From: a candidate division FCPU426 bacterium
GTDB taxonomy: Bacteria > Oederibacteriota > Muellerivitia > Muellerivitales > Muellerivitaceae
Reading direction: 5' to 3'
DNA: 64,000 bases
Assembly (NCBI GenBank): GCA_030041545.1
Contig: JASHNQ010000007.1
Span: 1 to 64,000 of the forward strand
Position numbers and translations under genes: made by a program. The notes beneath the pieces were generated by a model. It was not told where the DNA came from, did not search any database, and saw only the letters and a list, made by a program, of their open reading frames with translations. Below, in pieces: positions 21,269 through 48,608 of this stretch (position 1 is the first letter of the stretch; each line of letters starts with the position of its first letter).

Positions 21269-23389
21269 TCATCTGGCCAAGGCCATCCATTTCTTCAGGT
21301 CAAAGGCCGGATCGAACTTCGAGGCCCGGATAAAGCATTCCCCGGCCCTCCCCTTATCCCCGCTTTTCAAAAGGGCGATCCCCAACCGGAAATAGACGCC
21401 CGCGAACTTCTTGTCCAGGAAGGGATAGGAACGGGTGGCTTCCACTGGCTTCTCCAGAAGCCACAGGGCCGGGGTCATGTCCGAACCTACTAGAAGGATA
21501 TCCAGCCCTTTTTCCAGCACCCAGGCCCTCAGAAGAGGGTCCGCCCCGCAGCCGGAATAAATGGACCAGAGTTTTCCCAGCACGGGATTGAAATCCGGGT
21601 TTTCCACCACATAGGGCATGGCGCCGTAAAGGTCCTGGAGGGCCTGGTGCACCTGCATCCACTCCAGGAAAGTTTCCGCCACCCCGGGTGAATCCACCGG
21701 AACCAGGGCCAGGCAAAGGATGGAGCCGGAGGCGCCGGCATCGGATAAAACATCGATGCGGGTTCCGGGGAAACGCTTTTGGAGGATGGGGGCGTAATGC
21801 AGGTCCGCGAGGATGGCGGCCCACCGGGCCGAAGCCGGGGAAAGCCGCGGGTTTCGGCCGGCGTTGAAAGGATAGGTGGCGGTTAAAAGGGATTGGTCGT
21901 AGGCGTTCGAAACGAAGTCGGTGAAGACCTGTCCCGGGCCCTGGTTCTTTTCCGTTTCCTCCAGCAGTTGAAAGGCTTGGTACCGCTCCGGCGATTTAAT
22001 CTGGATGCCGGGGATTATGTTCACGGACCATTGGTGGAAGACGCCGAACAGGTGGTAGCCGTCCATTCCCAACGAGAAGGCCAAGGCGAGGACCAGGATG
22101 TCCCTCCGGGCGACCGGCGCGAGCTCCACCAATAAGGCGGCCAAGCCCGCGGCCACGGGCACAAGGCAAAGGGGCATCACGAGGTCGATGCGGAAACATT
22201 CCAGGGTGTTGAAGAAAAGCACAGGAAGGAGCAGGAGCCCCAAGGCCGCCCACCACCAGGTCCGGAACAGGGGCCCCAGGAATCGGTCCCAGGTCGCCAG
22301 TCCGATAAAAAACAAGGCATCCCCAAGGGGGTTCAGGAACCCGCCCCAAAGGGGGGCGAAGCTCCAATACGAGGAATCCGCGGGCCCCCAGAAAATCGAC
22401 GTGAAATAGGACAGCAAAGTGGCGTAACGGCGATCCCAGGGGATTGCCTGGCGGCTGAAAAGCGAATAGGTGAAGACGTGACCGTCGGCGAGGTTTTGAA
22501 GGAAGCCCGCGTGCATGGGGGCGGACACCACCACGGCGGGCAGGAGATAGGCTAGAAACGTCCCGGCACCCAGTCCCGGCTTGTTCCGGCAAAAGAGGAA
22601 CACCCCCGCCGTGAGGAGGGCCGCCGGGATCACGAACATCATGGAGGCATAAAACGAAAATCCCACGCCTAGCCCTAAGGCCAAGGCTATCCAGGGGGCC
22701 CGTTTCGGCGGGGCGTGGAGGAAAAAACCCAGCAAGAGGAGAAGCAGGAACTCCACCACCCATTGCAGAGCGCCCAGGTAGGCGTCGAACCGCCCGTAAT
22801 AAAGGGGCCAAAAGCCCAAAGCCAACAGGGCGGCAAAAAAGCCGGAAAGGGAAGGCGGCAGAAACCGGCGGGCGGTCCACCAGCCCAAAGGCACAGCCAA
22901 GAGCGAAAGCAGGGCGGGGTAAAGCCACATGGAAAAAAGCGAGGGCGGGAAAAGCCGGAAGAAACCTCCCTGCAGCCAGGTGAACAAGGGCATGGTTTTC
23001 TCGTGGCCTATGAAAAGGGGCCAGCCCCCCTTTTCCGAAAGGCCGATGGCGAAGTAACTGTAATTGGCGTCGTCCCAGGTCGGCCACACCGGGACCGAAA
23101 CTAGGCCGTAAAGCCGGAGGCCCAGGGCCAGGGCGCCCAGCCCCAGGAACCAGGCGGGGCCGGCCGGATTCAGGGGAAGCGGCGCCTCCTTGGGTTGGAA
23201 CGGCGCCCGGCGAAAAAAAAAGAAAACAAAAAAAATCTGCAGCGCCAGTCCCAGGGGGAAAAGCCAGAGCTTCCGCCAGACCGTCCAGGGGCCCCAGGCC
23301 AGGGCCGCGTTCAAGGCCAGGAGGATGAAAGACCACAGCCAAACCCCCGGGACCCTTGAGCCCCGGGCCCGGTCATTGGAAAAAGCCAT
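21269..23389 (-). CDS. Array paralog 1: GT-C-like polytopic membrane protein with C-terminal soluble tail
   Basis: Many TM segments; WPTWDDANYSYFAIGL; WGGFLNPLGDALFFIGL; YPFNAGRNPRLSPASARWAAILADLHYAPILQKRFPG. Confidence 0.75.
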   Translation of the reverse strand: MAFSNDRARGSRVPGVWLWSFILLALNAALAWGPWTVWRKLWLFPLGLALQIFFVFFFFRRAPFQPKEAPLPLNPAGPAWFLGLGALALGLRLYGLVSVPVWPTWDDANYSYFAIGLSEKGGWPLFIGHEKTMPLFTWLQGGFFRLFPPSLFSMWLYPALLSLLAVPLGWWTARRFLPPSLSGFFAALLALGFWPLYYGRFDAYLGALQWVVEFLLLLLLGFFLHAPPKRAPWIALALGLGVGFSFYASMMFVIPAALLTAGVFLFCRNKPGLGAGTFLAYLLPAVVVSAPMHAGFLQNLADGHVFTYSLFSRQAIPWDRRYATLLSYFTSIFWGPADSSYWSFAPLWGGFLNPLGDALFFIGLATWDRFLGPLFRTWWWAALGLLLLPVLFFNTLECFRIDLVMPLCLVPVAAGLAALLVELAPVARRDILVLALAFSLGMDGYHLFGVFHQWSVNIIPGIQIKSPERYQAFQLLEETEKNQGPGQVFTDFVSNAYDQSLLTATYPFNAGRNPRLSPASARWAAILADLHYAPILQKRFPGTRIDVLSDAGASGSILCLALVPVDSPGVAETFLEWMQVHQALQDLYGAMPYVVENPDFNPVLGKLWSIYSGCGADPLLRAWVLEKGLDILLVGSDMTPALWLLEKPVEATRSYPFLDKKFAGVYFRLGIALLKSGDKGRAGECFIRASKFDPAFDLKKWMALAR

Positions 23390-23522
23390 AGGCCATTATT
23401 GGAGGGCGCGGGGGTTTTTCCACTTAAATTTGCTCAGGCCCCAAAAGCAAACGGGTCGTGCGGCTCGGTCATTTAGAAAAAGTGAAAGGATGGGAGGTCC
23501 TTCCCCGCGACGACATCACCAT

Positions 23523-25631
23523 TTAATCCTCCAATCCCAATTCCCTCATTTCAACCAGGAGCCACGAGTTGCCGGGCGATTGTTTTAACGCCTCCTTGAA
23601 AATTTCCCGCGCCTCAGCTTGTTGTCCTTCTGAGGCCAACAGCCTTCCAAATTTTTCGCAAAGCGCGGGATCCTGGTAGCTTTGGGCGAAGCAGGCGTGG
23701 AAGATCGCGGAATAATGGGCCCACTGCGCCTGGCTGTCTTCGGGGTGGAAGGTCTTTTCGCAAGTGTAATTGAAGGCCAGCTTCTCGAAAAAACAGGACT
23801 GCAGGAAGGGGTCCTGGGGGACGGAAGGGTAAAAAGCCAGGAGGTCTTTCAGGATTCCCGAGCGGGGTAGGCCGTTGGAGAGGTCCAGGATCTTCCAATT
23901 GATATCTTGGAGCGGTCCGTAAAAGCCGGACCATTGCCGGAACACCGGCGATGTTTCGCCGGTTACGGGGAGGATCCCCAAAATGTGGCGCCCGGGCAAA
24001 CCCGGCCGGGGGGAGAGAAGGGAAACCCAGCGTGAACCCGGAAACCGGCGGCTTAAGAAAGGCTGGTAATGATAATCCGTCAAGACCGCGGCCCAGGAGA
24101 TGCCCGTCCGCGGCAAGCCGGTATTCCAGGCGGCGTTCATGAAATAAGAGGCGTAATCCAGGGAAGGGTCATCGGTTTCAGGGATCAATTCCGAAAATAG
24201 GTAACAGGGCCCCTGTTGGGAGAAATAAGGCTGCAGGAGTTCAAAGGCTTCATTTCCTTCACCCTGGGTGCCCTGGGAAGTGGCGCTGAAGGGCCAAAAC
24301 CGGGCACCGGGAAGGGGGATCCGAAGGACGTCCATCCCGGCGATTACCGCCAAAATCAAGGCCAGGCCCGCCATCCGCCGGGAAGACGGCAGGGCTGAAA
24401 CCAAGGCTTGGATCCCGAAGGCGGCGACCACCAGCAGGATGGGAAGGGTGGAAAGGATTCGAATGGGTTCGTAACCGTAACTCAAGAACCCCGGCAGTAA
24501 GAAAAGGGCAAGCGCGAGCCCCAAGGCCAGGGCCGGTCCTTTCTTTCCGATACGGTAAAGTTCAAGGATTCCTAGAAAAAAGCAAGCGCCGAGGAACACG
24601 TTCAATAACCCGCCGGCCCCCGGCAAGGCGGTTTCCGAACGGCTGTCCCAAAAAAGTCCTGAAAGATAACCTGTGACCGTGTCCACCAGGCCCTGCGGGG
24701 AAAAATGGTTCCACACCGAAATGGCCCGGATATGGCCTCCGTATCCACCTTCCCAGAGGAAATATAAAAAAGGGCCAAGAGTAGCCACCAGGGAAGCAAG
24801 GAAAGCTCCCGGGGCCCAGGGGGAACGGTGGGCTTTCCAAACCAAAACTAGGACCGCGAAAAGGGACACCACCGGCCAAGGGGTCAGGATATAAGGCCCC
24901 AACCCCGTTATAAAGCCGAGGAAAAGCGCCCTTCCCTTCGTCCTTGGCGAATCCTCCGCCGCGAGAAACCGGCCCAGGGCATAAAAAACCGCCAGTTCCC
25001 AGAGGGGGAAAAGTCCCACGGGGTAACCGGTGCGGGCCATTTGCAAAGCCCAAAAATTGTAGGCCAACAAGAAGGTCGCCAAGACGGAAAAAGGGCGGGA
25101 AAAATACTGCCGACAGGCCAGGTACCCCATCGGGATGGCCATCCAAGAAAGAGAGGCGGCTAAAAATTGGATGCTGAAAAGGGGGTTGTGGGTCCATCGC
25201 AACAACAGCCAGCATAACCGGCTTTGAGTGGTGGGGACCTGGCTGAAAGTCTCAAAAAGGCTCCAATTCCAATGCCGCAGCAAGGCGATGGCTCCCATGC
25301 CGTAGATGGCTTGATCCCCACCAGGCCACCAGCCGGAACCGCCCAGGCCCCAAAACCGCAGCAGAAGGGCCGCCACTCCCAGGGCGGCCCAGGCGGGCCA
25401 GGGAAGGGAGCCGCGGAAAAGTTCCTCTTTCTTTCCGGGCGCCGAAGGCTGCTTCCGAAGCGAGGAGAAGGCTAACCCCAAGGGCAAGACCAGGCCGAAT
25501 AGAGAAAGGAAGAGGCGATGGGTCGTGGAAAGGCCCGACGAGGAAAGGAGAAATTGGACAGGAAGAAAAACCAGGAAGTAGGGCCAGGGATGGTAGAAGC
25601 GGGTCAGATCGGCCTGAAAAAAATTTTTCAT
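23523..25631 (-). CDS. Array paralog 2: divergent GT-C-like membrane protein with C-terminal tail
   Basis: WWPGGDQAIYGMGAIALL; SWAAVLTDYHYQPFLSRRFPGSRW; DPFLQSCFFEKLAF; TPR-like end. Confidence 0.75.
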   Translation of the reverse strand: MKNFFQADLTRFYHPWPYFLVFLPVQFLLSSSGLSTTHRLFLSLFGLVLPLGLAFSSLRKQPSAPGKKEELFRGSLPWPAWAALGVAALLLRFWGLGGSGWWPGGDQAIYGMGAIALLRHWNWSLFETFSQVPTTQSRLCWLLLRWTHNPLFSIQFLAASLSWMAIPMGYLACRQYFSRPFSVLATFLLAYNFWALQMARTGYPVGLFPLWELAVFYALGRFLAAEDSPRTKGRALFLGFITGLGPYILTPWPVVSLFAVLVLVWKAHRSPWAPGAFLASLVATLGPFLYFLWEGGYGGHIRAISVWNHFSPQGLVDTVTGYLSGLFWDSRSETALPGAGGLLNVFLGACFFLGILELYRIGKKGPALALGLALALFLLPGFLSYGYEPIRILSTLPILLVVAAFGIQALVSALPSSRRMAGLALILAVIAGMDVLRIPLPGARFWPFSATSQGTQGEGNEAFELLQPYFSQQGPCYLFSELIPETDDPSLDYASYFMNAAWNTGLPRTGISWAAVLTDYHYQPFLSRRFPGSRWVSLLSPRPGLPGRHILGILPVTGETSPVFRQWSGFYGPLQDINWKILDLSNGLPRSGILKDLLAFYPSVPQDPFLQSCFFEKLAFNYTCEKTFHPEDSQAQWAHYSAIFHACFAQSYQDPALCEKFGRLLASEGQQAEAREIFKEALKQSPGNSWLLVEMRELGLED

Positions 25632-25772
25632 CTTTTCCTTTTCTTCCCAGAGCCGGTGCGCCGGGCGCCGGCCCCCCTTGCGAAAGGACCATACGCCATT
25701 ATTGAAAAGGGACGATATTTTTCCAATTAAATTTATTCCGGAGGGAAAAATGATCAAAGGTAGAATAGGGAC

Positions 25773-26744
25773 ATGAGTGCTTCGCCCCTGCACCCCCACG
25801 GCCATTCCCACAGCCATGCCGGCCTATCGCATGACCACGGGCATTCCCACGGACCCAACCGACGCGGTCCGATGCTCTGGGCCATCGGAATCACCGCCTC
25901 CATCCTGGTCTTGGAAGTGATCGGGGGGTTCCTCTCCCACTCCCTGGCCCTCTTGTCCGACGCGGGCCACATGCTCACCGACCTGGCCGCGCTCCTGATC
26001 TCCCTGGCCGCCATGGCCATGGCCGAGAGGCCGGTCAGCGACCGCCATACCTACGGCTTCGCGCGGCTGGAGGTGCTGGCCGCCTTCGGTAACGCCCTGA
26101 CTTTTTTCGGGATGGTGGCGGCCGTGGGGTGGGAGGCCTTCCAGCGCCTGGCCGCGCCCCGCCTGCCCGACTGGAAAACCATGGGCGTGATCGCCGCCGT
26201 CGGCCTCCTGGCCAACGCCTTTTCCGCCTGGTTCCTCCACGGGGCGCACGAGGAAGACCTGAACATGAAGAGCGCCTGGATCCACGTCCTGGGGGACCTG
26301 GCCTCCTCGGCGGGGGTGCTGGTGGGCGTGGCGGTCATCGCCCGGACCGGCTGGGCCTGGGTGGACCCGGCTATCAGCCTGGGAATCGCCTTCCTGATCG
26401 CCTTAAGCGCCTTCAATCTCTTTTGGAAGGCCCTGCATATCCTCTTGGAATCTGCCCCGATCGGGCTGACGACCGAGAGGATCAGCACCTGCCTGACCTC
26501 CCACATCCCCCAGGTCAAGGAAGTCCACCACGTGCACCTTTGGGAAGTGGGATCGGGGGAAATCCACCTGACCGCCCATTTAGTGGTGGAGAACCAGCCC
26601 TTAAGCCGGGCCCAGGAAATCCTGGAACGGGCGGTGAGGGATTTAGAAAAGGAATGCGGCATCCACCACGCCACCCTCCAGCTCGAAACTTCCTCCGCCG
26701 GGCGCCGCCAGGGGCCGGGGCGTTCCGGGTTTCGAAGGACCTAA
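25773..26744 (+). CDS. Cation diffusion facilitator (CzcD/ZitB-like) with His-rich N-terminus
   Basis: HPHGHSHSHAGLSHDHGHSHG; SDAGHMLTDLAALLISLAA; RHTYGFARLEVLAAF; SAWIHVLGDLASSAGVLVG. Confidence 0.9.
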   Translation: MSASPLHPHGHSHSHAGLSHDHGHSHGPNRRGPMLWAIGITASILVLEVIGGFLSHSLALLSDAGHMLTDLAALLISLAAMAMAERPVSDRHTYGFARLEVLAAFGNALTFFGMVAAVGWEAFQRLAAPRLPDWKTMGVIAAVGLLANAFSAWFLHGAHEEDLNMKSAWIHVLGDLASSAGVLVGVAVIARTGWAWVDPAISLGIAFLIALSAFNLFWKALHILLESAPIGLTTERISTCLTSHIPQVKEVHHVHLWEVGSGEIHLTAHLVVENQPLSRAQEILERAVRDLEKECGIHHATLQLETSSAGRRQGPGRSGFRRT

Positions 26745-26745: not shown

Positions 26746-28296
26746 TTGACCCAGCCAATCCCAAGCGGTCGCTGGCTCACCGTGACAGTCCTGGCCCTGG
26801 CGGCCAGTCTGATCGTATTGGAGCGCGGCCACACCTATTCCGAACCCCTGGAAAGGGACATCACCACCTACGGGGTCATCGGGGAGGAACTGTTGAAGGG
26901 CCGTGCCCTGTACTCCGACCTCTGGGACCACAAGCCGCCCGCCATCCATTTCACTTTCGCCGCCGCCGAGGCGCTGGTTGGGGAAGGCCCCCTCGCCGTC
27001 TTCCTGCTGAATATCCTCGCGGCTTTGGCGGTCCTGGCGGGGCTCTATCAGTGCGGAAAAAACCTGGGCGGCCGGGCCGGAGGCCTTTGGGCGGCGGTGA
27101 CCTGGGCGGTGGTCTCCGGAGACCTCTTCCTCCAAGCCAACCAGCCCAACGTGGAATTATTCCTCAACGCCTTTCAAACCTGGATCTTCGCGCTGTGGCT
27201 TTCCGCCGGCGCGAAAAACCCAAAACTCCGACGATGGGTATGGATCGGCATTCTGGCCGCCGCCGCTTTCCTCTATAAACCCTTCTCGGGTTTGGAGATT
27301 CTGCTCCTCGGGGGCGCCTGCCTTCTTCTCAGCGTCAATTCTTCCCAAAGCCGCACGGCTTTAAAACAATTCGGCACCGTTCTCGCCTGCCTTTGGGCCG
27401 CCTGGGCCTTGTGTTTGGGATGGTTTTATGGGAAGGGGAACTTGGACGATTTTTGGAACGCTGTTGTTAACTACAACTTTTATTACAGCGGCTACCAGGG
27501 AGCTTCCTTTTGGGGGTTCTTCCGGGACATCGGCGCCCAAGCCCTGGGGATATCCACCTTGGCCTGGCTTATACTTCTCTTAATCCTGGGATGCGTCGGC
27601 GCCTTCCTTGCGCGGGGGAACAAGGAAGCGAGAAACCCTTGGTTGTTGTGGGGCGCATTCCTGATCGCCGCGGAATTGGAAGTTGTCAGCACGGGACGGT
27701 TCTTCGCCCATTACGACCAACTGCTGATGCCTCCACTCATCCTGGGGGCCGCTTGGGGTGTCACTGCCGTGAGCGAAAGGATGGGCAACAAGAGATGGAG
27801 TTGCTTGCCGGGTGCCGCCTTATTGGCCTTCCTGATCTTCCACGAGGCGCCTTTTTACCGCCTAACGCCCGAGCAATGGGCCGACCGGAAATACGCGGAC
27901 GGGCCGGTTTTCGCGGAAGCCACCCAATTAGGCCACGAGTTGGATGGGATGCTGAAGCCCGGCGAGACCTTCTACGAATGGGGCAACGAAACCGAACTTT
28001 ATTTCGCCAGCCACCGCTCTCCCCCCAGCGGCGTGTTTTACAGCTATCCCCTACTGAACAATCCCCTGGCCTTAGAACTTTCCCAGCGCGCCGTGAAGGA
28101 CCTGGAAAAAGCGAGGCCGGAGATCGTCGTCCTCAACACGGCTTATTACCTGTCGGGGGACTTGTACCAAAGGCACCCGGTCCTTCTTTGGGTCCGCGAA
28201 AACTACCGGCCCTTCCCCCAAAATCCCTCCCGAGGCCCCTTTCTCCTGTTGGCGCTCAAGGGCGGGAGCCTGGAACAAAGGCTGGCCCGGCCCTAA
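26746..28296 (+). CDS. GT39/ArnT-like (GT-C) membrane glycosyltransferase
   Basis: ERDITTYGVIGEELLKGRALYSDLWDHKPPAIHFTFAAAEAL, multiple TM segments. Confidence 0.7.
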   Translation: MTQPIPSGRWLTVTVLALAASLIVLERGHTYSEPLERDITTYGVIGEELLKGRALYSDLWDHKPPAIHFTFAAAEALVGEGPLAVFLLNILAALAVLAGLYQCGKNLGGRAGGLWAAVTWAVVSGDLFLQANQPNVELFLNAFQTWIFALWLSAGAKNPKLRRWVWIGILAAAAFLYKPFSGLEILLLGGACLLLSVNSSQSRTALKQFGTVLACLWAAWALCLGWFYGKGNLDDFWNAVVNYNFYYSGYQGASFWGFFRDIGAQALGISTLAWLILLLILGCVGAFLARGNKEARNPWLLWGAFLIAAELEVVSTGRFFAHYDQLLMPPLILGAAWGVTAVSERMGNKRWSCLPGAALLAFLIFHEAPFYRLTPEQWADRKYADGPVFAEATQLGHELDGMLKPGETFYEWGNETELYFASHRSPPSGVFYSYPLLNNPLALELSQRAVKDLEKARPEIVVLNTAYYLSGDLYQRHPVLLWVRENYRPFPQNPSRGPFLLLALKGGSLEQRLARP

Positions 28297-28305: not shown

Positions 28306-30438
28306 CTATTTCTTCAGCGGCGGGGAAGCTTTCCCCAAGGCCTCCAGGATTTCCAGGTTGTCGGCGGCACGGGTGAGGTTGACCGGGCACTGGACAGCCT
28401 TCTCAAAGGCGTCCCGGGCGTCCCGGACATCCCCGCCCATGAGTTGAAGCGCCCCCAGTTCGTTATAAAAAAGGGCCGTGGGATAACCTTGCTTTAACTC
28501 CTCTTGCACGGCATGCAGGGCCCTGGGGTAATGCAAGGCCGTATTCTTGTCCCCATAAGCCATTTCCCATCCCTGGAAGTTAAAGACCCATTCCCAATAA
28601 ATGGATTCAAGGAAAAGGTCTCCTTCAAATAACGGGTACACCCGATCCAATTGGGTAAAAACCGACGACCGGTCGCCGTTCTCCGGCAGGTTCGCCGCCG
28701 CCCAAGTGATGTCCCTCAAGGCCTGGTCGGCACGCCGCCAAGCTTCGAGGGTTTTCTCCCGTTCCTGATCCAGGGGAATGATGCCCAGGACCAGGTTGGC
28801 ACCCTGCAGGTCGGGATTTTGCCGGTCGTAAAGGTCAAACCATCCGGACCCCGGAAACCGCCGCTCCAAAAAAGGCCGGTCATGGGCATCCACCACCACC
28901 GCCATCCACCGGACCCGGCCCCTGTCCAAATGGGGGTTGACGGTGGGATTAAATGTATAGGTCGCCACGGCCAGCGTCAGATCCGAGATATGGGGCCGCA
29001 GCTCAAACAACAAATCGCCCGGCCCCTCCTGGAGGGCCTGGGCGCGAAGGATGGGAAAGCCCTTGGCGAAAGCACTGGTGGAGGGCTGATAGGTCCGAAG
29101 GGTTTGATGGAGGTCGAACAACAGCAGGCAAGGCAGCGCGACGGCCAGGGCCCAGGCTCTCTTCGGCGCCGGAAAGCCAAGAAGCAGCCGTGCGGCGCCC
29201 AGGGCCGTCACCAGCAAGAGAAGTGGAAGGACCTGGATGTCGCGAAAAAGGTCGAAACCCCTCGTCGTCCACCCCGGCGCCATCAACAGGAAAAACGCGC
29301 CGGCCAGCAGGACGGCCCAGGCCTTCTTCCGGTGGCGCCAAGCCTCCAGGACCCCCAAGAAGAAACAGGCCCCCTCCAGGGGGTTCAGGACCCCGCCCGA
29401 CACCGGGCCGTAGCCGTTCTGGAGGTCGCAGCCCCAAAAAAGAACGGTGAAATTGGAAAGGGAATCCGTACATTGGCGCAGGACGTCCACTTTCCCGCTG
29501 AAAGCCCATAACTGGCGGATATGCACGCCGTTGTGGTAGTGGATCCAAACCCAGACGAACAAAAAACAGGAAGCCGCCACGGGCGCCAGGTAAAGGGCGA
29601 GGGAGGAACCGGCCGGTCTTTTTTTTGGCAAGAGGAGGAAAATCACGGCGCCGCTCACCGCCAGGGCCACCACGGGCCAGGAAATGGCCGCCCAAAAACC
29701 CACGGCCACGCAGGTGCCCACCACCAAGGGCACCCAGCCCGGCGGCGGGCTGGAGGGCCGTTTCGCCCAAACCGCCAGGAAGGCCAAAGTCAAGTATTCC
29801 CAAAAAACCAGTAGGACCAGGTACTGGCAAAACCGGCTGACGTAAAGGGACCAAAAGTTAACGGCCGCCAGGAAGACCCCCAGGAAGGCGAAGGAGGTGG
29901 AAAAGAGGCGCCGGGCGGTGACCCAGGCCAGGACGAGAGCGGCGATGGAAAGGAGTTTCGGGTAAAGCCAGAGGGCGGTCAGGGAAGGGGGAACCAAGCG
30001 GTCATAAAACGCCATAATCCAATTGAAGAGGGGCGGGTGTTGGGAGGGGGGGAAGAGAAAAATCCAGCGCCACCGGTTCAGGAGCTCCACCGAATGATAA
30101 GCGTCCAGGCTGTCGTCCCAGGTGGGCCAGTTCCCCGGCACCGCCATGAGTCCCAGGCCAATCGCCGCCCCCAAACCCACGACGGCCGGCCCCAGCCAAG
30201 GGGGGGGAGGGGGGAGGATCTCCGTCCGGAAAAGAGCCTTTTCCTTGGGTCCGGCAGGCTCCGTGAAAAATAAGGCTAATAGCATGGGTAGCAAAACGCC
30301 CAAAAGGAAAACCCAAAGTTTCACCGTTAGGCCCAAGGGACCATAGAAAAGAAGGGCGTTGGCGCCGGTGAAGACCGCGAAATAAACCCAAGCCCGGGCG
30401 GGATAGGGGATGCCGGGGAAATCCTTCTTCAGGCTCAT
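28306..30438 (-). CDS. Array paralog 3: GT-C-like membrane protein with C-terminal tail
   Basis: WPTWDDSLDAYHSVELLNRWRW; GGVLNPLEGACFFLGVLEAWR; RWMAVVVDAHDRPFLERRFPGSGW; ATGA overlap with the preceding gene. Confidence 0.75.
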   Translation of the reverse strand: MSLKKDFPGIPYPARAWVYFAVFTGANALLFYGPLGLTVKLWVFLLGVLLPMLLALFFTEPAGPKEKALFRTEILPPPPPWLGPAVVGLGAAIGLGLMAVPGNWPTWDDSLDAYHSVELLNRWRWIFLFPPSQHPPLFNWIMAFYDRLVPPSLTALWLYPKLLSIAALVLAWVTARRLFSTSFAFLGVFLAAVNFWSLYVSRFCQYLVLLVFWEYLTLAFLAVWAKRPSSPPPGWVPLVVGTCVAVGFWAAISWPVVALAVSGAVIFLLLPKKRPAGSSLALYLAPVAASCFLFVWVWIHYHNGVHIRQLWAFSGKVDVLRQCTDSLSNFTVLFWGCDLQNGYGPVSGGVLNPLEGACFFLGVLEAWRHRKKAWAVLLAGAFFLLMAPGWTTRGFDLFRDIQVLPLLLLVTALGAARLLLGFPAPKRAWALAVALPCLLLFDLHQTLRTYQPSTSAFAKGFPILRAQALQEGPGDLLFELRPHISDLTLAVATYTFNPTVNPHLDRGRVRWMAVVVDAHDRPFLERRFPGSGWFDLYDRQNPDLQGANLVLGIIPLDQEREKTLEAWRRADQALRDITWAAANLPENGDRSSVFTQLDRVYPLFEGDLFLESIYWEWVFNFQGWEMAYGDKNTALHYPRALHAVQEELKQGYPTALFYNELGALQLMGGDVRDARDAFEKAVQCPVNLTRAADNLEILEALGKASPPLKK

Positions 30439-35417: not shown

Positions 35418-35552
35418 GGGCGTTTATTTTAAAACAGGGAAGCCCACGCCCGTAAGCCCCCAACACCCCGGCTCCTTGAAAGGTCATTCCGGTTTTTTTT
35501 CGGATATGATGGTAGCTGGACCTCCTTCCCAGAAAGGGGCTTTTCACCCAAT

Positions 35553-37160: not shown

Positions 37161-37664
37161 CTAGCATGCTTTCAGCCACTGTTCCAAGTTCCGGTCGACC
37201 TCATTGAGCCGCTTGGCCCAGCGTTCTTCCAACTCAGGGGAAAGGAGGTTCTTTCTCCGGCAGAGGCTCATCAAGGGCACGCACTCGTGGGTCAAGGACA
37301 GGGCTTGCTCCAGGAACCTTCCAGTGCGGGCCGGGCTCCCGGAATCCTTGGCCTTTTGCACGGCCTGGGAAAGCTCGTGGACTTGGCGCTTCAGGCGCGA
37401 GATGGCCTCGTGCTTGAGGGCCCAAGGCAGGTTCTGGTAGGTTTTGTTGATCTCGCCCGCCAGGTCACCACAAAGGGCGGGCAAATCAACGCTTAAAAAA
37501 TCCGATGAAGCCAAGCGGGCTTCCTTTATTGAGCTACTGTGGGTTTGCCAAACGGATGATTCCGAAAAAGAATTATGCAAAAGGCTCATGAAAAAACCAA
37601 GGAAGATTTTGGAGGGAAGGCCCAACACCGTCCAAAGCTTGAGGGAGGGCGCTTTTTTTTTCAT
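37161..37664 (-). CDS. Four-helix-bundle-like protein with an N-terminus possibly derived from an array paralog
   Basis: VDLPALCGDLAGEINKTYQNLPWALKHEAISRLKRQVHELSQAVQKA...RFLEQALSLTHECVPLMSL...; starts with an ATGA overlap with paralog 7. Confidence 0.4.
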   Translation of the reverse strand: MKKKAPSLKLWTVLGLPSKIFLGFFMSLLHNSFSESSVWQTHSSSIKEARLASSDFLSVDLPALCGDLAGEINKTYQNLPWALKHEAISRLKRQVHELSQAVQKAKDSGSPARTGRFLEQALSLTHECVPLMSLCRRKNLLSPELEERWAKRLNEVDRNLEQWLKAC

Positions 37665-39802: not shown

Positions 39803-41989
39803 CTATTTCAAGTCATCCACCGGAGAAAGCCGGGCCAGGAACCGCCGGGAATCGGTGAAGTCCAAGGGCGACCGCAGGGCCCCCTCGAAAGCCCGCCGGG
39901 CTTGGGCTTTTTCGCCAGCCAAGGAATAAAGCACGCCCAAGTGGAAATAAAGGTTGGCGGCCGGGCAGCCTTTGTCCAATGCGGAAAGGAGGTTTTCGAT
40001 GGGCGCCTTCCATTCCGGTTGGGGCACTTCCCCCGGAAAGAGGCGGCCGCTGGGCATCTCCGACAACCTTCGCCCCGTGGTTTTAAAGTAGGAAGCCAAC
40101 AACAGGGATTGAAAACGAATGTCCGAAACCTTTTCCCAATAGAACGACTCTAAAAGCGGGTCGCCTTGAAAAGCGGGATAAGCCCGGTCAAGGTCGGCCA
40201 ACAGGATTCTACCGCCCGCCCCGTCGTTTTTCATGACATTGTCCTCCTGGAAGGGAACCAAGGCCCAAGCCGCCTGCTTCCACTTGTCAAAGGCTTGCGC
40301 AGGAGCCGGTTCTAAGGGATGGACCCACAACATCATGCCCCCATCGGAGGGAGGGTGGTCCTTGGAAAGCCAGAAAAACCGTCCGCCCGGGAACTGCCGG
40401 CTCAAGCAAGGCTGGTAATTCACGTTTTCGATTAAGGCGGCCCAGGCGCATTTCCCTTCGGGAATCCGCGGGTTGTAAAGTCCATCAAAGGCGGCGCAAG
40501 CAACTTCCAGGAAAGGGGGCCGAGACGGATCCACATTAAAGGACGAGAAAAAAAGCCCCGGCCCTTCCTTTTCGGCGATTCCACGCAGGATTTCCCACGC
40601 TTTCACGTCGACTGCGGGTTTTTGGGCGGGATTGACCGTGTCGATGTCCAAGGAAGTGTAGTGAAGATTCATTCCATCCAGTCCCATGGAAAGCATCAGG
40701 AGGCCGCCGAGGAGGAGTTTCACCTTTCCCTTAGGTAAGGACTCGGCCAATTGAAGGAAGCCCAGCACCACGACGCCGTATACCAGCGGGACCAGATGGA
40801 CTAAGTGGAAAACATTAAACATCCCCGAAAAGAGGATCGGCACAAAGCCGATTAGGACCGCCCAGCCCATAGGCCCGGCCGCCGGATGCCGGCGATGGCG
40901 GAAAAGGGCAAGGAGACCCGTGAAGAAGAAGCCGCCGGTCACGGGGTTCAATAAGCCTCCCCAAGCAGGGCCGTAGGAAAAGTAACCCTTCCATCCCATC
41001 CAAAAAACCGCTCCAACATTCTCCAAAGCCGAAAGGGGCCACTCTGCGGCCCCACCGTTTTGGGCTTGGGGGTTCAGGGCGAACAAGCCCCACAGATAGC
41101 CCCCGAAGCCCGTTTGAACCGCCGCAATTCCCAGTGGAAGGGCAGTCAAAACGGCGGTGAGGACGAAAACTCCCATGCCGACGGCCTTCCGGGGTTTTTT
41201 CACCGGCTCCAGGATTTTCCAGCAGGCTCCTCCTATAAAAAGGGCCACCAAGATCCACGAAAAATAGGTGTAAAAACCCGATCCCACGCAAAGCCCCAAA
41301 AGGACCAGGAAGGCCCAGCGGCTTTTCGGAGTGGATGCCCGGCGAAGCCACCCTAAGAGCCACAGGCCGACCCATTCCCAAAGGAGCATCAAAAGGCCCT
41401 GGTGCGCGAAGCGCCCGGCAAGAACCGGCCAAAAGCCCAAAGAGACGAAAAGGAACAACCAGAAGGAAAAACCCTTGGCGAAAAAATTCCGGGAGGCCGC
41501 GTAGGAAAGGAAGGCGCAGGCGGTGGAAATCAAGGCGCTCAACAGGCGCATGGCGGCCAAGGACGGCCCGAAAGCCTTGAACCCAAGCGCCAGGGCCCAG
41601 TTGAAAAGAGGCGGCAATTGGGTAGCCGATTGAAAAAACCTCCAATTCCAGTGTTCCGCCAGGTCCATGGCGTAAAAGCCATTGACCGCTTCATCATACA
41701 AGGGAAAGCCGGGGAAGGAATTCAACCCAAAGAAACGGACCCCAGCCGCCCCCAGGACCGCTACCGGTAGGGCCCAAACCCAGGCGGGAAAGGATGGAAG
41801 GAATTCCTTTTGAAACCGTCCATTGGTTTGGGGAGTGGGCAGGAAACGCAGGGCCAATAGAAAGGGAAAAAGAATTCCCAAAAGGCCGACCGCCAGTTTG
41901 GCCCCCCAGGGGAGTTTTGAATAGGAAAGCAGGCTGTTGGAGGCGAGGAAAAGGAGGAAAAGGAAAAACCAAGATTTTGACCCGCTCAT
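39803..41989 (-). CDS. Array paralog 8: GT-C-like membrane protein with C-terminal tail
   Basis: FPLYDEAVNGFYAMDLAEHWNW; WGGLLNPVTGGFFFTGLLALFR; CAWAALIENVNYQPCLSRQFPGGRFFWLS; ATGA overlap with the upstream gene. Confidence 0.8.
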   Translation of the reverse strand: MSGSKSWFFLFLLFLASNSLLSYSKLPWGAKLAVGLLGILFPFLLALRFLPTPQTNGRFQKEFLPSFPAWVWALPVAVLGAAGVRFFGLNSFPGFPLYDEAVNGFYAMDLAEHWNWRFFQSATQLPPLFNWALALGFKAFGPSLAAMRLLSALISTACAFLSYAASRNFFAKGFSFWLFLFVSLGFWPVLAGRFAHQGLLMLLWEWVGLWLLGWLRRASTPKSRWAFLVLLGLCVGSGFYTYFSWILVALFIGGACWKILEPVKKPRKAVGMGVFVLTAVLTALPLGIAAVQTGFGGYLWGLFALNPQAQNGGAAEWPLSALENVGAVFWMGWKGYFSYGPAWGGLLNPVTGGFFFTGLLALFRHRRHPAAGPMGWAVLIGFVPILFSGMFNVFHLVHLVPLVYGVVVLGFLQLAESLPKGKVKLLLGGLLMLSMGLDGMNLHYTSLDIDTVNPAQKPAVDVKAWEILRGIAEKEGPGLFFSSFNVDPSRPPFLEVACAAFDGLYNPRIPEGKCAWAALIENVNYQPCLSRQFPGGRFFWLSKDHPPSDGGMMLWVHPLEPAPAQAFDKWKQAAWALVPFQEDNVMKNDGAGGRILLADLDRAYPAFQGDPLLESFYWEKVSDIRFQSLLLASYFKTTGRRLSEMPSGRLFPGEVPQPEWKAPIENLLSALDKGCPAANLYFHLGVLYSLAGEKAQARRAFEGALRSPLDFTDSRRFLARLSPVDDLK

Positions 41990-44085
41990 GGGCGATTCCT
42001 TCCGGCGGCCGTTTCCAGTGAGGCCAGGTCCCTGGGGGCGTCCGTCAAATCCATCGGGGCGTGGAGGGCCTTCCCAAACGCCCACCGGGCATCCTCCCCA
42101 TCGCCGGTTTGCGCGTAAAAGGACCCCAGCCGCCAAAAGAGGTTGGCCGCCGGGTACCCTTTTTGGATTGCCGTTTTAAGGTATTTTAAGGAATCCACGC
42201 TGTCCTTGAACCCGGAGACCCGGAAGGAGAGATCCGACAGCTTTTCCCAATAACAAGATTGAAGGAAGGGATCGCCCTCAAAAGCGGGCTCCGCCTTTTG
42301 AAGCAGGGGCAAAAGCACCCAGGGGTCCTTGTAGGGACAGCCTTCGTAGGCATGGGAGGCCGCCCGCCATTTCTCAAAATCCGGCCGGGTGGCCGGGGTT
42401 ACCGGGGCCACCCAAAGCATCCAGCCGCCGTCGGGCCGGTTCAGGCCCCCGGAAAGCGCGAAGGCCCGCGCTTGGGGGAAGCGTTTTTGGAGGAAGGGTT
42501 TGTAGTTCACGTTGGCCAGGACCGCGGCCCAGGAGGCTTTTTCCAGGGAAAGAGATGGATTTTGGGCGGCGTTGATGGGATATTCCAACACGAAAAGGCT
42601 CTGGTCACAGAGGCCCGGAACGAAACCGTCGAATATCAGGCCGGGGCCTTGTTCGGAGTCCATCTTTTGGAGCAGGGCATGGGCCCGGTAACGCTCCATC
42701 GACTTCCCGTAGCCGATCCAGGACGCGGGCGAATCCCAGATACCCTGATATTTGACCGCCAAATGGTAGAAATCCAGCCCGGCGAAGGCCAAACCCAGGC
42801 CCCAAAGCATGAACACCAAGCGCAAGGGGGTGAGGCCGGCCAACAGTCTGCGCCATCCCAATCCACACGCGAAAAGCAGCACCGGCAGGACGGGCAGCAC
42901 CCGCAGCGGCTCCCGCGTGGAAGTCGCCATACCGGGAAGGAGAAACAACAGGGCCGCCGCCAGCCACCCCCAGCCCGCCCACCGGCCGCTTTTTAAAAGT
43001 TCCAGGAATCCCAGAAGCAAGAAGGAATCCAGCAGGGGATCCAGGAAGCCGCCCCACACGGGCTGGTAGGTGTGGAACGACGGGTCCAGGCCCCCAAAAA
43101 TCGCCGATAGGTAGGAAAGGGAAACGTCCCATTGACGCCCCATATCCCCCCTTTGGGACCAAAACCCCACTTGCGAGCCGTAGCTTCGCACTGCGTCCCC
43201 AAGGCCAGCCCTCCAAAGGGGGGCCAAGAGCAAAACCCCCCCCGCAGCCCAAATCGCCAAAGGTGTCCAGGAGCGGGGTTTTCGGCGCAGGCAGTCCACC
43301 AGGACCGCGGCGCCCGACAGGAACGCCACCGTGGCCCAGGAAATAAAAACGTAAAAGCCGGTTCCCGCCGCCGCGCCCAAGGCCAGCGCCCTCCAGTTGC
43401 GGGAGGAGGAAGAAGGGGATTTAAGGTAAAAACCCAAAAGGCCGAAGGTGAGGAATTCCGCCAAAAGCACCAAGACCATCTGGTCGCCGACGCGCCCCAC
43501 GTAGAGGGGCCAGAAGCTGAAGGCCGCCAGCCAGGTGGTTAAGAGGGAAAGGGACCTTGAGAAAAACATCTGGGAACACCATGCCGCCGCGGCCACGGTC
43601 AAGGCGGACAAAAGGGCCGGATAGAACCAGAGACAGAAAAGGGAAGGCTTGAGCCATCGGAACAAAAAGGCCAGGCCCCACGCGTAGCCGGCGGGAAAAT
43701 TCGCCCCTTCCGGGAACAATCCCAAGCCCTGTTGGTTGAAACGCACCGCCAGCCAACCCCAAAGCCCGTCGTCGTAAAAAGGCCAGACCGACAAGGCGGT
43801 GAGTTTGTAAAACCGGACGAAAACCGCGCAAGCCCCCAGTAGGACCCAAACCCAGGCGGGAAGGGGTGGCAGGAATTCCTTTTGAAATAGCACGGCGGGT
43901 TCGGGCGCGGGAAGGAAACGCAGGGCCAGAAGGAAAGGAAAGAGGATTCCCAAAAAGCCGACCCCTAGCTTGGCTCCGGGGGAAAGGGGAAAATAGGAAA
44001 GGAGGATGTTGGAAACCAGGAACACCAGGAAATAAGCCCATGGCGCGGGACAAAAAGCATGGGATTTCCCAACGGGTCGAACCAT
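41986..44085 (-). CDS. Array paralog 9: GT-C-like membrane protein with C-terminal tail
   Basis: WPFYDDGLWGWLAVRFNQQGLG; WGGFLDPLLDSFLLLGFLELLK; YPINAAQNPSLSLEKASWAAVLANVNYKPFLQKRFP. Confidence 0.8.
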   Translation of the reverse strand: MVRPVGKSHAFCPAPWAYFLVFLVSNILLSYFPLSPGAKLGVGFLGILFPFLLALRFLPAPEPAVLFQKEFLPPLPAWVWVLLGACAVFVRFYKLTALSVWPFYDDGLWGWLAVRFNQQGLGLFPEGANFPAGYAWGLAFLFRWLKPSLFCLWFYPALLSALTVAAAAWCSQMFFSRSLSLLTTWLAAFSFWPLYVGRVGDQMVLVLLAEFLTFGLLGFYLKSPSSSSRNWRALALGAAAGTGFYVFISWATVAFLSGAAVLVDCLRRKPRSWTPLAIWAAGGVLLLAPLWRAGLGDAVRSYGSQVGFWSQRGDMGRQWDVSLSYLSAIFGGLDPSFHTYQPVWGGFLDPLLDSFLLLGFLELLKSGRWAGWGWLAAALLFLLPGMATSTREPLRVLPVLPVLLFACGLGWRRLLAGLTPLRLVFMLWGLGLAFAGLDFYHLAVKYQGIWDSPASWIGYGKSMERYRAHALLQKMDSEQGPGLIFDGFVPGLCDQSLFVLEYPINAAQNPSLSLEKASWAAVLANVNYKPFLQKRFPQARAFALSGGLNRPDGGWMLWVAPVTPATRPDFEKWRAASHAYEGCPYKDPWVLLPLLQKAEPAFEGDPFLQSCYWEKLSDLSFRVSGFKDSVDSLKYLKTAIQKGYPAANLFWRLGSFYAQTGDGEDARWAFGKALHAPMDLTDAPRDLASLETAAGRNRP

Positions 44086-44153: not shown

Positions 44154-46433
44154 ATGTTCCGCAGCCCAAGGCTGACATTGAGAAAATGGCGCGACCGCCT
44201 CCTGGCCTCGCCCTCCTTCCTTTTGGGGAATCCCGCGGGGCGCGCGTGGAAAAATCCAAAGGGGTTCGAGTATTATTTTTTAAGCGCCATCAACGGCCTT
44301 TCATTTTTCAGGATCTTCCTGGGTTTTTACCTGGCCGCGGGAAGAACCAAGAACGATGATTTCAAATTGTACCTATTGGGCTGGCTGTTTTTCCCGGCCC
44401 TCGGCCTGTTGTCCGGAAATTTCATCGACGATCTGCGCGACCGATGGCGGCCGCAAAACCCCTATTTCTATCCGGTCCTCCTTTTCCTGAATTTTACGTT
44501 CGCGCTTTTTGCCCTGCATCCGGCCCAATGGGCCCTCCCCGGATGGGTCCTGGCCAGCTGTTTTTTACTTCTCCAAATCCTGGCCCTTGCGACGATCCAA
44601 ATCCTCGAACGGTTTTTTCCGAACCCCCGGGGGAAATGGCGCGGGATACCCTATCTTTTAATGTTCCTTTCCTTTGGATTATGGTTTTTTAAAACCCAAA
44701 CCTTCCTGTCCCAAGACATGGGTCATTGGACCCTCGCCCGTGGATTGGCCCTTGTTGGAATCGTGGCGGCGTTGTATGGGGACGGTTCCGCCTGGGGAAA
44801 GGATCCGGACGGAGGCAAACCGGGATTTTTCTCAAACCTGTTTTTTCACGCCTTGGGGTTTATTTTCATCTTGGTCATGGTCGTTGAACCTGGTTTTACC
44901 TATGACCCCTACCATTACGCCTCCTACCTGGGACCCTTGAGCGATATGTGCGCCGGGAAAACCCTCTTGTTCAACGTCAGCGCCCAATACGGGATCCTGG
45001 TTTATTACTTCCTGCGTTTCTTTTTCCTTTTCCTTCCCTTGGGGTATACCTCCCTTTGCCTCCTGCTGACGGCGGCCTATATCCTCCAGTATTTTTTGTT
45101 TTATTTTACCGCCCGGAAACTGTTCTGGTCCGAATTCCTGTCCTTTTTCGCGTTGGCGGCCCTTCTTCTCCTGAACTATTTCGCACCCGAAGGCCAGGCC
45201 ACCTGGTATCCCTCCATCGGCCCCCTTCGGTTCGGTTTTATTTACTTGCTCATGGCTTTGGTGGTCCTGCGGAACCGCCATCCCCGCCGCCGAAGCCTCT
45301 TTTTAAGGCTGGAAGCGGCCGTGGCCGCCACGGCGTTTCTTTGGAGTTTTGAGGTTTGCCTTTTTATCCTTCCCGCCTACCTCGGCTTGGCCGCCTACGA
45401 GTCACTGGAAGCCCGGCGCGGCCGCCTCCGCTTCGAGGCCCTAGGTTTCCGGAATAGGGTTTCGGGGTTACTGGTTTTTGCCGCCCTCCTCCTGGCCTTT
45501 TTTTACCTGGACGTGATCCGCCGGAACGGGAAACCACCCCAATGGTCCCTTTATTTCGACTATAACGCCCTCCACTTGGGCGGTTTTTTCCTTCGGTGGA
45601 TGCCGGCGTCAGGCTGTTGGTGGTCCGTCCTGGCTGTCTTGTATTTTTCCTTTTTCGCCGTATTAGGCGCCGTCTTCCGGGCCCCGGACCGCGTGGATAG
45701 GTTCCCGAACTTCAATGCCGTTGTGCTCCTGACTTTTTACGGCATCACCCAGTTTTATTACTACGTGGGGCGGGCCGTCGGATTCAATTTACTGGCCGTT
45801 TCCATGCCCAGCCTCCTGCTTTTCCTTTATTGGCTGTTTTTTTTGAGAAGGTACGACCTCCCTTCGGCCCCGCCGATCTTAAAAAAGGGCGCCTTTGCCC
45901 TGGGCGTCCTCGCGATCGGGATCTATCTTCCCTTGTTTGTCCCCCGGGCGCTTCAAAAGATCCAATATAAAAAGGCCTCCCTTCCCGATTTGTGGGACAA
46001 CATCGTCCATCGACCCTGGGACGAGGGCCGGCAAAATTCCTTTGCCCAAACCGCGGAATCCCTCATGTCGAAATACTCGGGGACAAAGAAGGAATTGGTT
46101 TATTTCTTCGGGGACTATAAGGGCCTGGAAGTTTCCATGTATTGCGGAAGAGTGAAGGTTTATCCCTATAACAACGTCTTCGAAGCCGATATCTGCCCGG
46201 CCATCCGCGCAAGGCTTCTTGCCTTTGACCCAAAACTGAAGCCCGGGGACTGCATTTACCTTTCGAAGGACTTCAGCCAAACCGAAGTTTATTACGAATA
46301 CCCGGATTCCAGCCAGCACCTGCTGTCCAACCTTGAGCCCACGCTCTTGTCCTTCCTGGCTTCCAAGTACCAATTCAACCAAGTGGAAGAGAAGGACGGC
46401 ATCGCGGTGTTCCGGGTGACCGGGGCGCGGTAA
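44154..46433 (+). CDS. Large polytopic membrane protein, GT-C-like, unknown function
   Basis: 759 aa, many hydrophobic segments; VEPGFTYDPYHYASYLGP; distinct from the minus-strand paralog family. Confidence 0.55.
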   Translation: MFRSPRLTLRKWRDRLLASPSFLLGNPAGRAWKNPKGFEYYFLSAINGLSFFRIFLGFYLAAGRTKNDDFKLYLLGWLFFPALGLLSGNFIDDLRDRWRPQNPYFYPVLLFLNFTFALFALHPAQWALPGWVLASCFLLLQILALATIQILERFFPNPRGKWRGIPYLLMFLSFGLWFFKTQTFLSQDMGHWTLARGLALVGIVAALYGDGSAWGKDPDGGKPGFFSNLFFHALGFIFILVMVVEPGFTYDPYHYASYLGPLSDMCAGKTLLFNVSAQYGILVYYFLRFFFLFLPLGYTSLCLLLTAAYILQYFLFYFTARKLFWSEFLSFFALAALLLLNYFAPEGQATWYPSIGPLRFGFIYLLMALVVLRNRHPRRRSLFLRLEAAVAATAFLWSFEVCLFILPAYLGLAAYESLEARRGRLRFEALGFRNRVSGLLVFAALLLAFFYLDVIRRNGKPPQWSLYFDYNALHLGGFFLRWMPASGCWWSVLAVLYFSFFAVLGAVFRAPDRVDRFPNFNAVVLLTFYGITQFYYYVGRAVGFNLLAVSMPSLLLFLYWLFFLRRYDLPSAPPILKKGAFALGVLAIGIYLPLFVPRALQKIQYKKASLPDLWDNIVHRPWDEGRQNSFAQTAESLMSKYSGTKKELVYFFGDYKGLEVSMYCGRVKVYPYNNVFEADICPAIRARLLAFDPKLKPGDCIYLSKDFSQTEVYYEYPDSSQHLLSNLEPTLLSFLASKYQFNQVEEKDGIAVFRVTGAR

Positions 46434-46496
46434 TTTTTTCCAAGCCCCCCATCTCCAAAGGCGATCACGGGGGGGAAATCCGCCCAGGAGCCCTTT

Positions 46497-48608
46497 TTAA
46501 TGGGCTCTTTGTAAATTCTCGGCCGCCGGTGTGTGATCGACCGGTGATCGCAATGCCGCCTTAAAAGCCTCGCGGGCTTTTCCCCCATCCCCCAGCGTCC
46601 ACCACAGCACGCCCAGGTCGTTCAGGAGGTTGGCCGAGGGGTAACCCTTGGTAATAGCGCGCCGCAGCGCCTCCAGGGCCGGTTGGGGATCGGAACAGCT
46701 CATGGCGCAGAAAAAGATCCTCTCCGCCACGCAGGACTCCAGAAAAGGATCCTTCCGGACCTCCGGTTCCAATTGAAGCAGTTTTTGCAAAGCCCCGCTC
46801 GGCGTTTGGCCGAGGGGCATGCGGAAAAACAGGGAGGTAACGCCGCGCAGGTCCCTTTCGGCCTTTAACCAGAGGGAAAAATCCCCCCGGTTCGAAGCGG
46901 TAAGGGGAATGACACCCAGTACCAGGTTTCCCTGCGGGACGGCGGTTTCAGGGGCCAATGGAAACCACCGGGCTTGCGGATACCGCTTCGAGAGGAAAGG
47001 CGCGTAATCGATATCGGCCAGCAAGGCCGCCCAGCGGGCCTGAGAAGGCGGGAGGCGGGGGTTGCGGGCCGCATTCATGGGATAAACCGCGACCGTGAAA
47101 GTTTGGTCAAAGGGGGTGGGCCCCAATTCGGTGAAGATGAGGCCCGGGCCCTGGAACCGGGACATGGAACCGAGGATACGGTAGGCCCGGAGCCTCTCCA
47201 AGGACTTGACCCCCAGGACCTCGGCTTGGACATCGGAGCGCCAAAACCCCCGATAGGGCCCCCAAAGATGGAGGAGATCCAACAGGGAGGACCCCAGCAA
47301 AAGGCCCAAGACCACCGCCCGGCGAAGCCAGGGTTTTCCCTTGCGGGGAACCAGGCGGAAAAGGCCGATAACGCCCACCGCCAGGAGGGGCGCGAAGATT
47401 AGGAGCCAGCGCAGCAATTCCAAATCCGAGGACAAGAGGGCCGGCAGGGAGAAGAGTCCCAAGGCTAGGAGAAGCCATAGCCGCAGGCCGTTTTGCCTCG
47501 CCCGGACCAGGGAGCCCAATCCGACCAGGAAAAGGGAAGAGATTAGGGGATTCAAGAAGCCCCCCCACAAAGGTTTATAAGCGTAGCGTTGGGTCTCAAC
47601 GCCCCAGAAGAGCCCCAAGGCATAGTCCCCGGCCATCCGCAACTGGTCCGGAAGGGAAAACCCGGGATGGACGGCGAAAACCGATTTCAAGTAGGCCCCT
47701 TGGTTCCCCCAAAAGAAGAAGCCCAGATAGGGAAGGGCCGCCAGGAGGAGCGCGCCGATAAAAACCAACCCGGCTCCTCCCCGCTGGGGAAGGTCCCGCG
47801 AGGCGAAGGCGGCCACGGCCAGAAGGACGAAAAGCGCCATAACCGGCCAATGGTGAAGGGTGTAGAAACCCAGGCCGGTCCATAAACCCAAGAGCGCGGT
47901 CCCGGTTTTCCCGCCGCGATTTTCCCTTGGACGCAGGAAAAGCCCCAGTAGGGCGAAGGCGCCGAACTGCCAGAGGATTTCCAGCGACTGGCCCTGGCAC
48001 AACCGGCCCAAGTAAAGGGGCGTGAAGTTAAAGGCCCAAAGAAAGGCGAAAACCCAAGCGAAAGATTTCGGGAAAAAAGCACGGGCCGCCATGTAAGCCA
48101 GGGGCAAGGCCAAGGACGATAACAGGGCTGGGTAGAGCCAGAGGGAGGCGAGGGAAGGCCCGAAGAGCTTGAAAAATGCCCCCAGGCTCCAGACGAAGAA
48201 CGGCGGCCATTGGGCGTAGGAATAAAAAAAATGCAACTTCTCGCCCTCGCTCAGTTCCGTGGCGAAAAACCCCGCGATTCCCTCATCCACCAGCGGCCAG
48301 GTGGAAAGGGTCGTTAATTGGTAAAAACGGGCGAATAAGGCCGCCAGGAGGAATAAGAGCCAGGCCCACCCTGGCATCGGGGGAAAGGATTGCTCATCCA
48401 TGAAAGCCGCAGGGGATCCGGAATCCCCTGGTTTCAAGCGGAGGAACAAAACAAAAGGCAAAAGCAAGCCCAGCAAGCCAATACCCAGCTTCACCCCGAA
48501 TGGCAAGGGGACGTAGGAAAGAAGGAGATTGGCGGCCAGGAAAACAAAAAAATAAACCCAGGGGGAACGCGGGAAGGAAGGCCCGGGGCCGGTGGAAAAT
48601 CGGGACAT
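46497..48608 (-). CDS. Array paralog 10: GT-C-like membrane protein with C-terminal tail
   Basis: WPLVDEGIAGFFATELSEGEKLHFF; WGGFLNPLISSLFLVGLGSLVR; YPMNAARNPRLPPSQARWAALLADIDYAPFLSKRYP; DPFLESCVAERI. Confidence 0.8.
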   Translation of the reverse strand: MSRFSTGPGPSFPRSPWVYFFVFLAANLLLSYVPLPFGVKLGIGLLGLLLPFVLFLRLKPGDSGSPAAFMDEQSFPPMPGWAWLLFLLAALFARFYQLTTLSTWPLVDEGIAGFFATELSEGEKLHFFYSYAQWPPFFVWSLGAFFKLFGPSLASLWLYPALLSSLALPLAYMAARAFFPKSFAWVFAFLWAFNFTPLYLGRLCQGQSLEILWQFGAFALLGLFLRPRENRGGKTGTALLGLWTGLGFYTLHHWPVMALFVLLAVAAFASRDLPQRGGAGLVFIGALLLAALPYLGFFFWGNQGAYLKSVFAVHPGFSLPDQLRMAGDYALGLFWGVETQRYAYKPLWGGFLNPLISSLFLVGLGSLVRARQNGLRLWLLLALGLFSLPALLSSDLELLRWLLIFAPLLAVGVIGLFRLVPRKGKPWLRRAVVLGLLLGSSLLDLLHLWGPYRGFWRSDVQAEVLGVKSLERLRAYRILGSMSRFQGPGLIFTELGPTPFDQTFTVAVYPMNAARNPRLPPSQARWAALLADIDYAPFLSKRYPQARWFPLAPETAVPQGNLVLGVIPLTASNRGDFSLWLKAERDLRGVTSLFFRMPLGQTPSGALQKLLQLEPEVRKDPFLESCVAERIFFCAMSCSDPQPALEALRRAITKGYPSANLLNDLGVLWWTLGDGGKAREAFKAALRSPVDHTPAAENLQRAH

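Follow-up and report, generated by a model that had tools for sequence, protein, structure and literature searches.

A conserved locus of an FCPU426 bacterium carries nine apparently old paralogs of a GT-C-like membrane protein family

The 64,000-nucleotide stretch analysed here (the window), from a candidate division FCPU426 bacterium, carries nine paralogous genes, p1 to p9, for large membrane proteins. We consider, with a probability of about 0.68, that the nine are specialised periplasmic GT-C glycosyltransferases of one family which use lipid-linked donors to modify envelope glycans or secreted proteins, and that they are old and occupy a locus with a fixed frame. The window lies on contig C91 of a 3.8 Mb genome, 98.5% complete, and the genes were named by rising coordinate. 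A preliminary description of this DNA had listed nine intact minus-strand paralogs within about 27 kb, and nine uninterrupted open reading frames (ORFs) of about 690-770 aa are indeed present, all with the 3' ends that it gave:

21269-23389, minus strand: p1, member of the GT-C-like family, 706 aa (ORF, alignment and family profile; PMT_2 27.7 bits, over the cutoff)
23523-25631, minus strand: p2, most divergent member of the family (alignment, AlphaFold and Foldseek)
28306-30438, minus strand: p3, family member (alignment; PMT_2 31.1 bits; ATG at 30438)
30435-32594, minus strand: p4, family member (alignment; ATG at 32594; 59% identity to its orthologue in genome G002)
32591-34912, minus strand: p5, family member, 773 aa (ORF, alignment and profile)
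37661-39790, minus strand: p6, family member, 709 aa (alignment, AlphaFold model)
39803-41989, minus strand: p7, family member (alignment; PMT_2 26.9 bits; ATG at 41989)
41986-44085, minus strand: p8, family member, 699 aa (alignment; orthologues within the arrays of G002 and G005)
46497-48608, minus strand: p9, family member, 703 aa (alignment; 17 nt downstream of hpnE)

The gene starts were less accurate than the 3' ends. Those listed for the genes at 28306, 30435 and 39803 lie too far upstream, the likely start codons being the ATGs at 30438, 32594 and 41989, with which p3, p4 and p7 each form a 4-nt ATGA overlap with the stop of the gene upstream (p4, p5 and p8, respectively). For p2, the ORF as listed extends to 25817, and the ATG at 25631 is the most likely start. 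The resulting spacings are -4 and -4 nt in the unit p5-p4-p3, -4, +12 and -4 nt in the unit formed by p8, p7, p6 and an ORF of 167 codons (ORF167), 17 nt between hpnE and p9, and 133 nt between p2 and p1; p5-p4-p3, p8-p7-p6-ORF167 and hpnE-p9 are therefore probable operons. Thus, all nine genes share a strand, as first described, but they do not form one continuous array, being divided into several transcription units by plus-strand genes.

The nine proteins align over their whole length with 25-46% identity (31-46% to p6) and 38 invariant columns, which include the WPxxD[DE] and GGxLNP motifs and tail residues (P97, D100, G341-G342, W516, W570 and D610 among them), bearing out the common layout and soluble tail ascribed to them. 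A profile built from the nine scored them at 852-1010 bits and recovered 11 further full-length copies at 408-642 bits, bringing the genome to 20 full-length copies; the next matches are partial and reach at most 67 bits. Because of this gap, and because the most conserved positions include residues of the soluble tail, the similarity does not come from shared hydrophobic or transmembrane composition, a concern raised at the outset. The eleven copies outside the array lie in unrelated contexts, with no common pathway among their neighbours when judged by eye. Matches to PMT_2 in the genome number 42 at E<=1e-3, some of them family members.

Full-length copies occur in 8/8 sampled genomes of one bacterial family, representing five genera, with 6-23 full or partial matches in each of the seven genomes other than that of the window. 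The 37 other genomes of the phylum gave no match at E<=1e-30, nor did 374 genomes from outside the bacterial family at E<=1e-40. In a 59-genome sample, matches outside it are partial, cover mostly the N-terminal GT-C part and score at most 87 bits, and a degenerate DNA pattern derived from a three-row alignment matched just two contigs, both from FCPU426 metagenome-assembled genomes (MAGs). As far as sampled, the full-length protein family appears confined to one FCPU426 family. A literature search found no paper on glycosylation in FCPU426.

Two members, p6 and p2, were modelled with AlphaFold2 using the nine sequences as the alignment (pLDDT 74 and pTM 0.77 for p6; pLDDT 73 and pTM 0.72 for p2), and the models were compared with the PDB using Foldseek. 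For both, every match at E<=1e-3 is either a GT-C enzyme or a complex that includes such an enzyme. The best match of p6 is ArnT (5f15, E 5e-8), followed by STT3, ALG9, ALG12 and Pmt4, and that of p2 is AglB (3waj, E 3e-6), with ArnT at 4e-5 and then ALG9, PglB, Pmt4 and AftB. The layout comprises an N-terminal helix pair, the GT-C core, an alpha/beta domain and a TPR-like tail with only one or two units; TPR proteins, matching the tail, are among the 60 matches listed by a profile sequence search of the PDB, and the TPR models gave single weak matches only, below their cutoffs. In the models, the helix pair (residues 10-51 of p6) precedes the core, and the D100-E/D101 motif comes after a third helix (72-91) that would correspond to the first helix of the core; family-averaged hydropathy was too blunt for counting helices. 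Conservation was counted in up to 106 homologues: D100 is Asp in 103/104 and Glu in the remaining one, position 101 is acidic (E or D) in 96%, and R392, at the beginning of a late core helix, is conserved in 97%, with G355 at 100%, W516 at 97% and D610 at 98%. In characterised GT-C enzymes an essential acidic motif follows the first transmembrane domain and an arginine of a late luminal loop binds dolichol phosphate (PMC6801728); the catalytic aspartate lies at the tip of JM1 in ArnT, PglB, ALG6 and PimE (PMC12041525). By position rather than by a superposed active site, D100 and R392 would be the equivalents of these residues. The models and the conserved residues support a GT-C (GT-CA-like) fold with a catalytic-type acidic loop for the family, as had been suggested from the motifs.

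The view that the genes are divergent rather than recent copies agrees with their phylogeny. When the genome of origin is mapped onto a tree of 106 copies, it changes 72 times, compared with a shuffled mean of 71.1, so that the copies do not cluster by genome. The tree contains 16 disjoint single-copy clades with support of at least 95, each extending across at least 2 genera. Forcing the nine window genes into one clade costs 1484 log-likelihood units (approximately unbiased test, p-AU 3e-76). Seven of them pair first with a gene of another genome, the exception to this general pattern being p1 and p5, sisters with no close orthologue found elsewhere, which appear to be a lineage-specific pair. 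The ratio of nonsynonymous to synonymous substitution rates (dN/dS) between same-genus orthologues is 0.17-0.35, indicating purifying selection. These comparisons strongly support an array that is old and conserved, not a recent burst: the copies split before the five genera did and have since been kept apart by purifying selection. Such ancient separate retention fits distinct donor, linkage or acceptor specificities, and we infer a division of labour of this kind among the members. On the grounds of this retention, their cross-genus orthology and the purifying selection, the suggestion that they are specialised members of one system is plausible.

Comparison of gene order with the relatives showed that the array is bounded by addB-addA on one side and hpnE-hpnD-hpnC on the other, with a CDF transporter and the four-helix protein encoded by ORF167 as near-constant residents of this frame. 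The number of family copies inside it ranges from 1 to 9 (1 in G001, 5 in G003 and 9 in the window genome). In G003 the frame lies on a single 240 kb contig, and its five family genes include orthologues of p2 and p9 as well as p6-group genes, ordered as in the window. The sole family gene of the G001 frame is the p2 orthologue; p2 orthologues occupy the same locus in G002, G003 and G007 as well. Six family genes follow addA in G005, including the orthologues of p6, p8 and p7, and the next 19 kb yielded no hpnE. Pieces of the frame were seen on short contigs in G002 and G007. Members of the array thus have orthologues across genera and its frame is conserved, and we propose that the locus is a chromosomal site where family copies are gained and lost within fixed borders; the eight genomes are compatible both with loss from a large ancestral array and with movement between species. 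An acyltransferase-3 gene of G001 (L142, G001:C163:65771-67395) fills the slot immediately following hpnE, which GT-C family genes take in other genomes, and the acyltransferase of the window lies at 50153-51301, on the opposite strand.

In the mechanism we favour, each member would be an inner-membrane enzyme whose active site faces the periplasm and would receive its sugar from a polyprenyl-phosphate donor. The conserved Asp that follows core transmembrane helix 1 would act as the catalytic base and the conserved Arg of the late outer loop would hold the donor phosphate, the sugar being passed with inversion to an envelope glycan or a secreted protein, while the soluble tail (the alpha/beta domain and TPR-like helices) would bind or choose either the acceptor or a partner. 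Decoration of surface glycans is our first choice and protein O-glycosylation the second. A more far-reaching version is tentative and, on balance, doubtful: the locus may be a modular island for surface-glycan diversification, a fixed frame that gains and loses old, specialised GT-C enzymes of a single private family from one species to another. Each species would then carry its own set of periplasmic sugar decorations, the acceptors being selected by the TPR-like tail.

Several observations weigh against periplasmic GT-C activity and an old array. No GtrA/DPMS-type flippase was found in the genome to account for the donor route. The models are of moderate confidence and align to PDB entries with modest TM-scores (0.54-0.55 for ArnT, by target length), so that the GT-C subclass is not fixed. 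The deep nodes of the tree are weakly supported, and array size is uncertain in incomplete MAGs, with those of G000, G001, G003 and G005 read from long contigs. The gathering cutoff of PMT_2 (PF13231, 26.1 bits) is passed by p1, p3 and p7 only; p6 (24.1 bits), p9 (22.7) and p4 (16.6) fall below it, and p2, p5 and p8 have no match. Other named families fared no better: no PF02366, MIR or TMTC match was obtained for any of the nine at E<=1, and no NCBIfam match, the ArnT model included, for p1, p6 and p8, the three scanned. The label GT39/ArnT-like given in the preliminary description was therefore too specific, ArnT moreover belonging to CAZy family GT83, not GT39. The family has a GT-C fold and would work like GT-C enzymes while standing outside the named families tested.

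That the nine are TMTC- or PMT-like protein O-glycosyltransferases, acting on Thr/Pro-rich tracts of secreted proteins held by the TPR-like tail, is in our judgement unlikely, if the most serious of the alternatives. TMTC enzymes (GT105), which modify proteins, likewise carry TPRs attached to a GT-C core (PMC6801728), the genome contains 29 TPTFTPT-type DNA matches compared with 2 in a control, a Thr/Pro-rich secreted protein (56369-57622) adjoins the island, and the density of Thr/Pro tracts correlates with that of PMT_2 over 45 genomes of the phylum (rho 0.48). However, this correlation is not significant at the level of bacterial families (rho 0.42, p 0.11) and is broken by families f2 (tract-rich, GT-C-poor) and f5 (tracts absent, GT-C present); the want of TMTC or PMT model matches and the presence of only one or two TPR-like units also speak against it. 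In the same 45 genomes, TPTFTPT-type tracts are absent from families f4, f5 and f12 and very common in f1, f2, f11 and f16.

Catalytically inactive scaffolds with a GT-C fold do exist, such as PIGU in the GPI transamidase (PMC12041525), but non-enzymes usually lose the catalytic-type Asp in some members, whereas here an acidic residue persists at this position across deep divergence, making a scaffold role very improbable. Slightly less credible still is glycosylation of terpenoid lipids produced through the neighbouring hpnC-hpnD-hpnE genes (48626-53102; hpnC and hpnE score over their model cutoffs and hpnD reaches 197 of 279 bits), even though no more than 17 nt separate hpnE from a family gene in the window and in G003, and the two adjoin in G007. 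No squalene-hopene cyclase was found in the genome, which disfavours a hopanoid gene cluster or hopanoid glycosylation; the product would be squalene, which offers no hydroxyl acceptor, the eleven dispersed copies lie in unrelated contexts, and G001 has its acyltransferase after hpnE. Because no cyclase was found, the link to hpnC-D-E is probably only positional. Least probable of all is recent tandem duplication for gene dosage, with near-redundant copies born in this lineage: despite the close spacing of the genes on one strand and the decayed additional copy beside p5, it is refuted for the entire array by the low identity, the tree and the rejection of a single clade, and may hold for p1/p5, whose sisterhood implies some local duplication.

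Among known systems, ArnT (GT83, PMT_2 domain; PDB 5f15/5ezm) shares with the family, besides being the best fold match of p6, the acidic residue after the first core helix and a polytopic core followed by a soluble tail. It differs in identity (12-14%), in the missing match to its model (three members), in the 20 paralogs that one genome has here, and in lacking the N-terminal helix pair before the core and the TPR-like helices after the alpha/beta tail. TMTC1-4 (GT105) similarly combine a GT-C core with C-terminal TPR helices and occur as several paralogs in one genome; unlike them, the family has no TMTC model match and carries its few TPR-like units after an alpha/beta domain. STT3/AglB/PglB (GT66) and Pmt1/2/4 (GT39) are GT-C fold matches without any family-model match to STT3, PF02366 or MIR. 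The three-component Gtr/GT136 systems of extracytoplasmic side-chain glycosylation (PMC11127046) also rely on a GT-C enzyme, a separate one for each linkage, that adds a sugar from a polyprenyl-phosphate donor on the periplasmic side, whereas no synthase or flippase was recognised within the array and no GtrA-type flippase was found in the genome. Mycobacterial and corynebacterial GT-C sets (Emb, Aft, PimE) likewise provide several enzymes with distinct linkages for one envelope, and AftB and AftA are among the fold matches, but those enzymes belong to different families with known acceptors and not to one family with 20 copies in a single genome.

The other features within and beside the array are as follows:

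25773-26744, plus strand: CDF cation-efflux transporter, conserved island member (PF01545 143.8 bits; synteny)
26746-28296, plus strand: separate PMT_2 GT-C protein, 516 aa (PMT_2 39 bits; orthologue in place in G001 and G002)
about 34950-35345, minus strand: what is left of a tenth family copy, a frameshifted C-terminal piece (blastx 42-49% to the p5 tail)
35553-37127, plus strand: polytopic membrane protein, 524 aa (no Pfam match; GT-C-like by eye only)
37161-37664, minus strand: ORF167, four-helix-bundle protein of 167 aa (resembles 23S_rRNA_IVP/Avd, below cutoffs; overlaps the p6 stop by 4 nt)
44154-46433, plus strand: polytopic membrane protein, 759 aa (no Pfam match; orthologue, 86%, adjoins p9 in G002)
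48626-50086, minus strand: hpnE, hydroxysqualene dehydroxylase (TIGR03467 362.5 bits; right-hand frame with hpnD and hpnC)

Of three plus-strand genes previously called GT-C-like, the one at 26746-28296 deserves the name by its PMT_2 match, and the other two have no Pfam match. ORF167, the CDF transporter and the frameshifted tenth copy had been overlooked. The family profile matches the remnant, which sits above p5, at C91:34960-35151; it belongs to a decayed region (34913-35552) in which, farther upstream, there is a stretch like the start of ORF167 (FPALCGDLAGEMNKTF). ORF167 is kept in G001, G002, G003, G005 and G007. Its product is 62-87% identical among relatives, that is, better conserved than the adjoining GT-C genes, and in G003, G005 and G007 it is encoded directly downstream of a family gene, as it is downstream of p6 here. 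A role as the Avd protein of a diversity-generating retroelement was rejected (Avd 18.4 bits against a cutoff of 80; no RVT_1 in the genome). Beside the island, the Thr/Pro-rich secreted protein and two neighbours form a conserved block (56369-60335), and G003 carries additional copies of the two neighbours. Nearby, 8031-11594 encodes a large beta-helix protein that resembles autotransporters and, judged by eye, ends in a barrel-type C-terminal part, and a piece of its orthologue was also seen upstream of addB in G001.

The novelty of these observations is moderate: the lineage-restricted, expanded GT-C family is new, and the mechanism is not, a known enzyme class being found in an unusual locus. 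The family is unusual in its layout and in the many old paralogs that each genome carries, which suggests that these bacteria decorate their cell surface with many different sugars through dedicated enzymes. If each copy has its own specificity, the paralogs would offer a ready-made series in which to study how GT-C enzymes choose their donors and acceptors, and would be a sign of rich envelope glycosylation, so far unstudied, in FCPU426.

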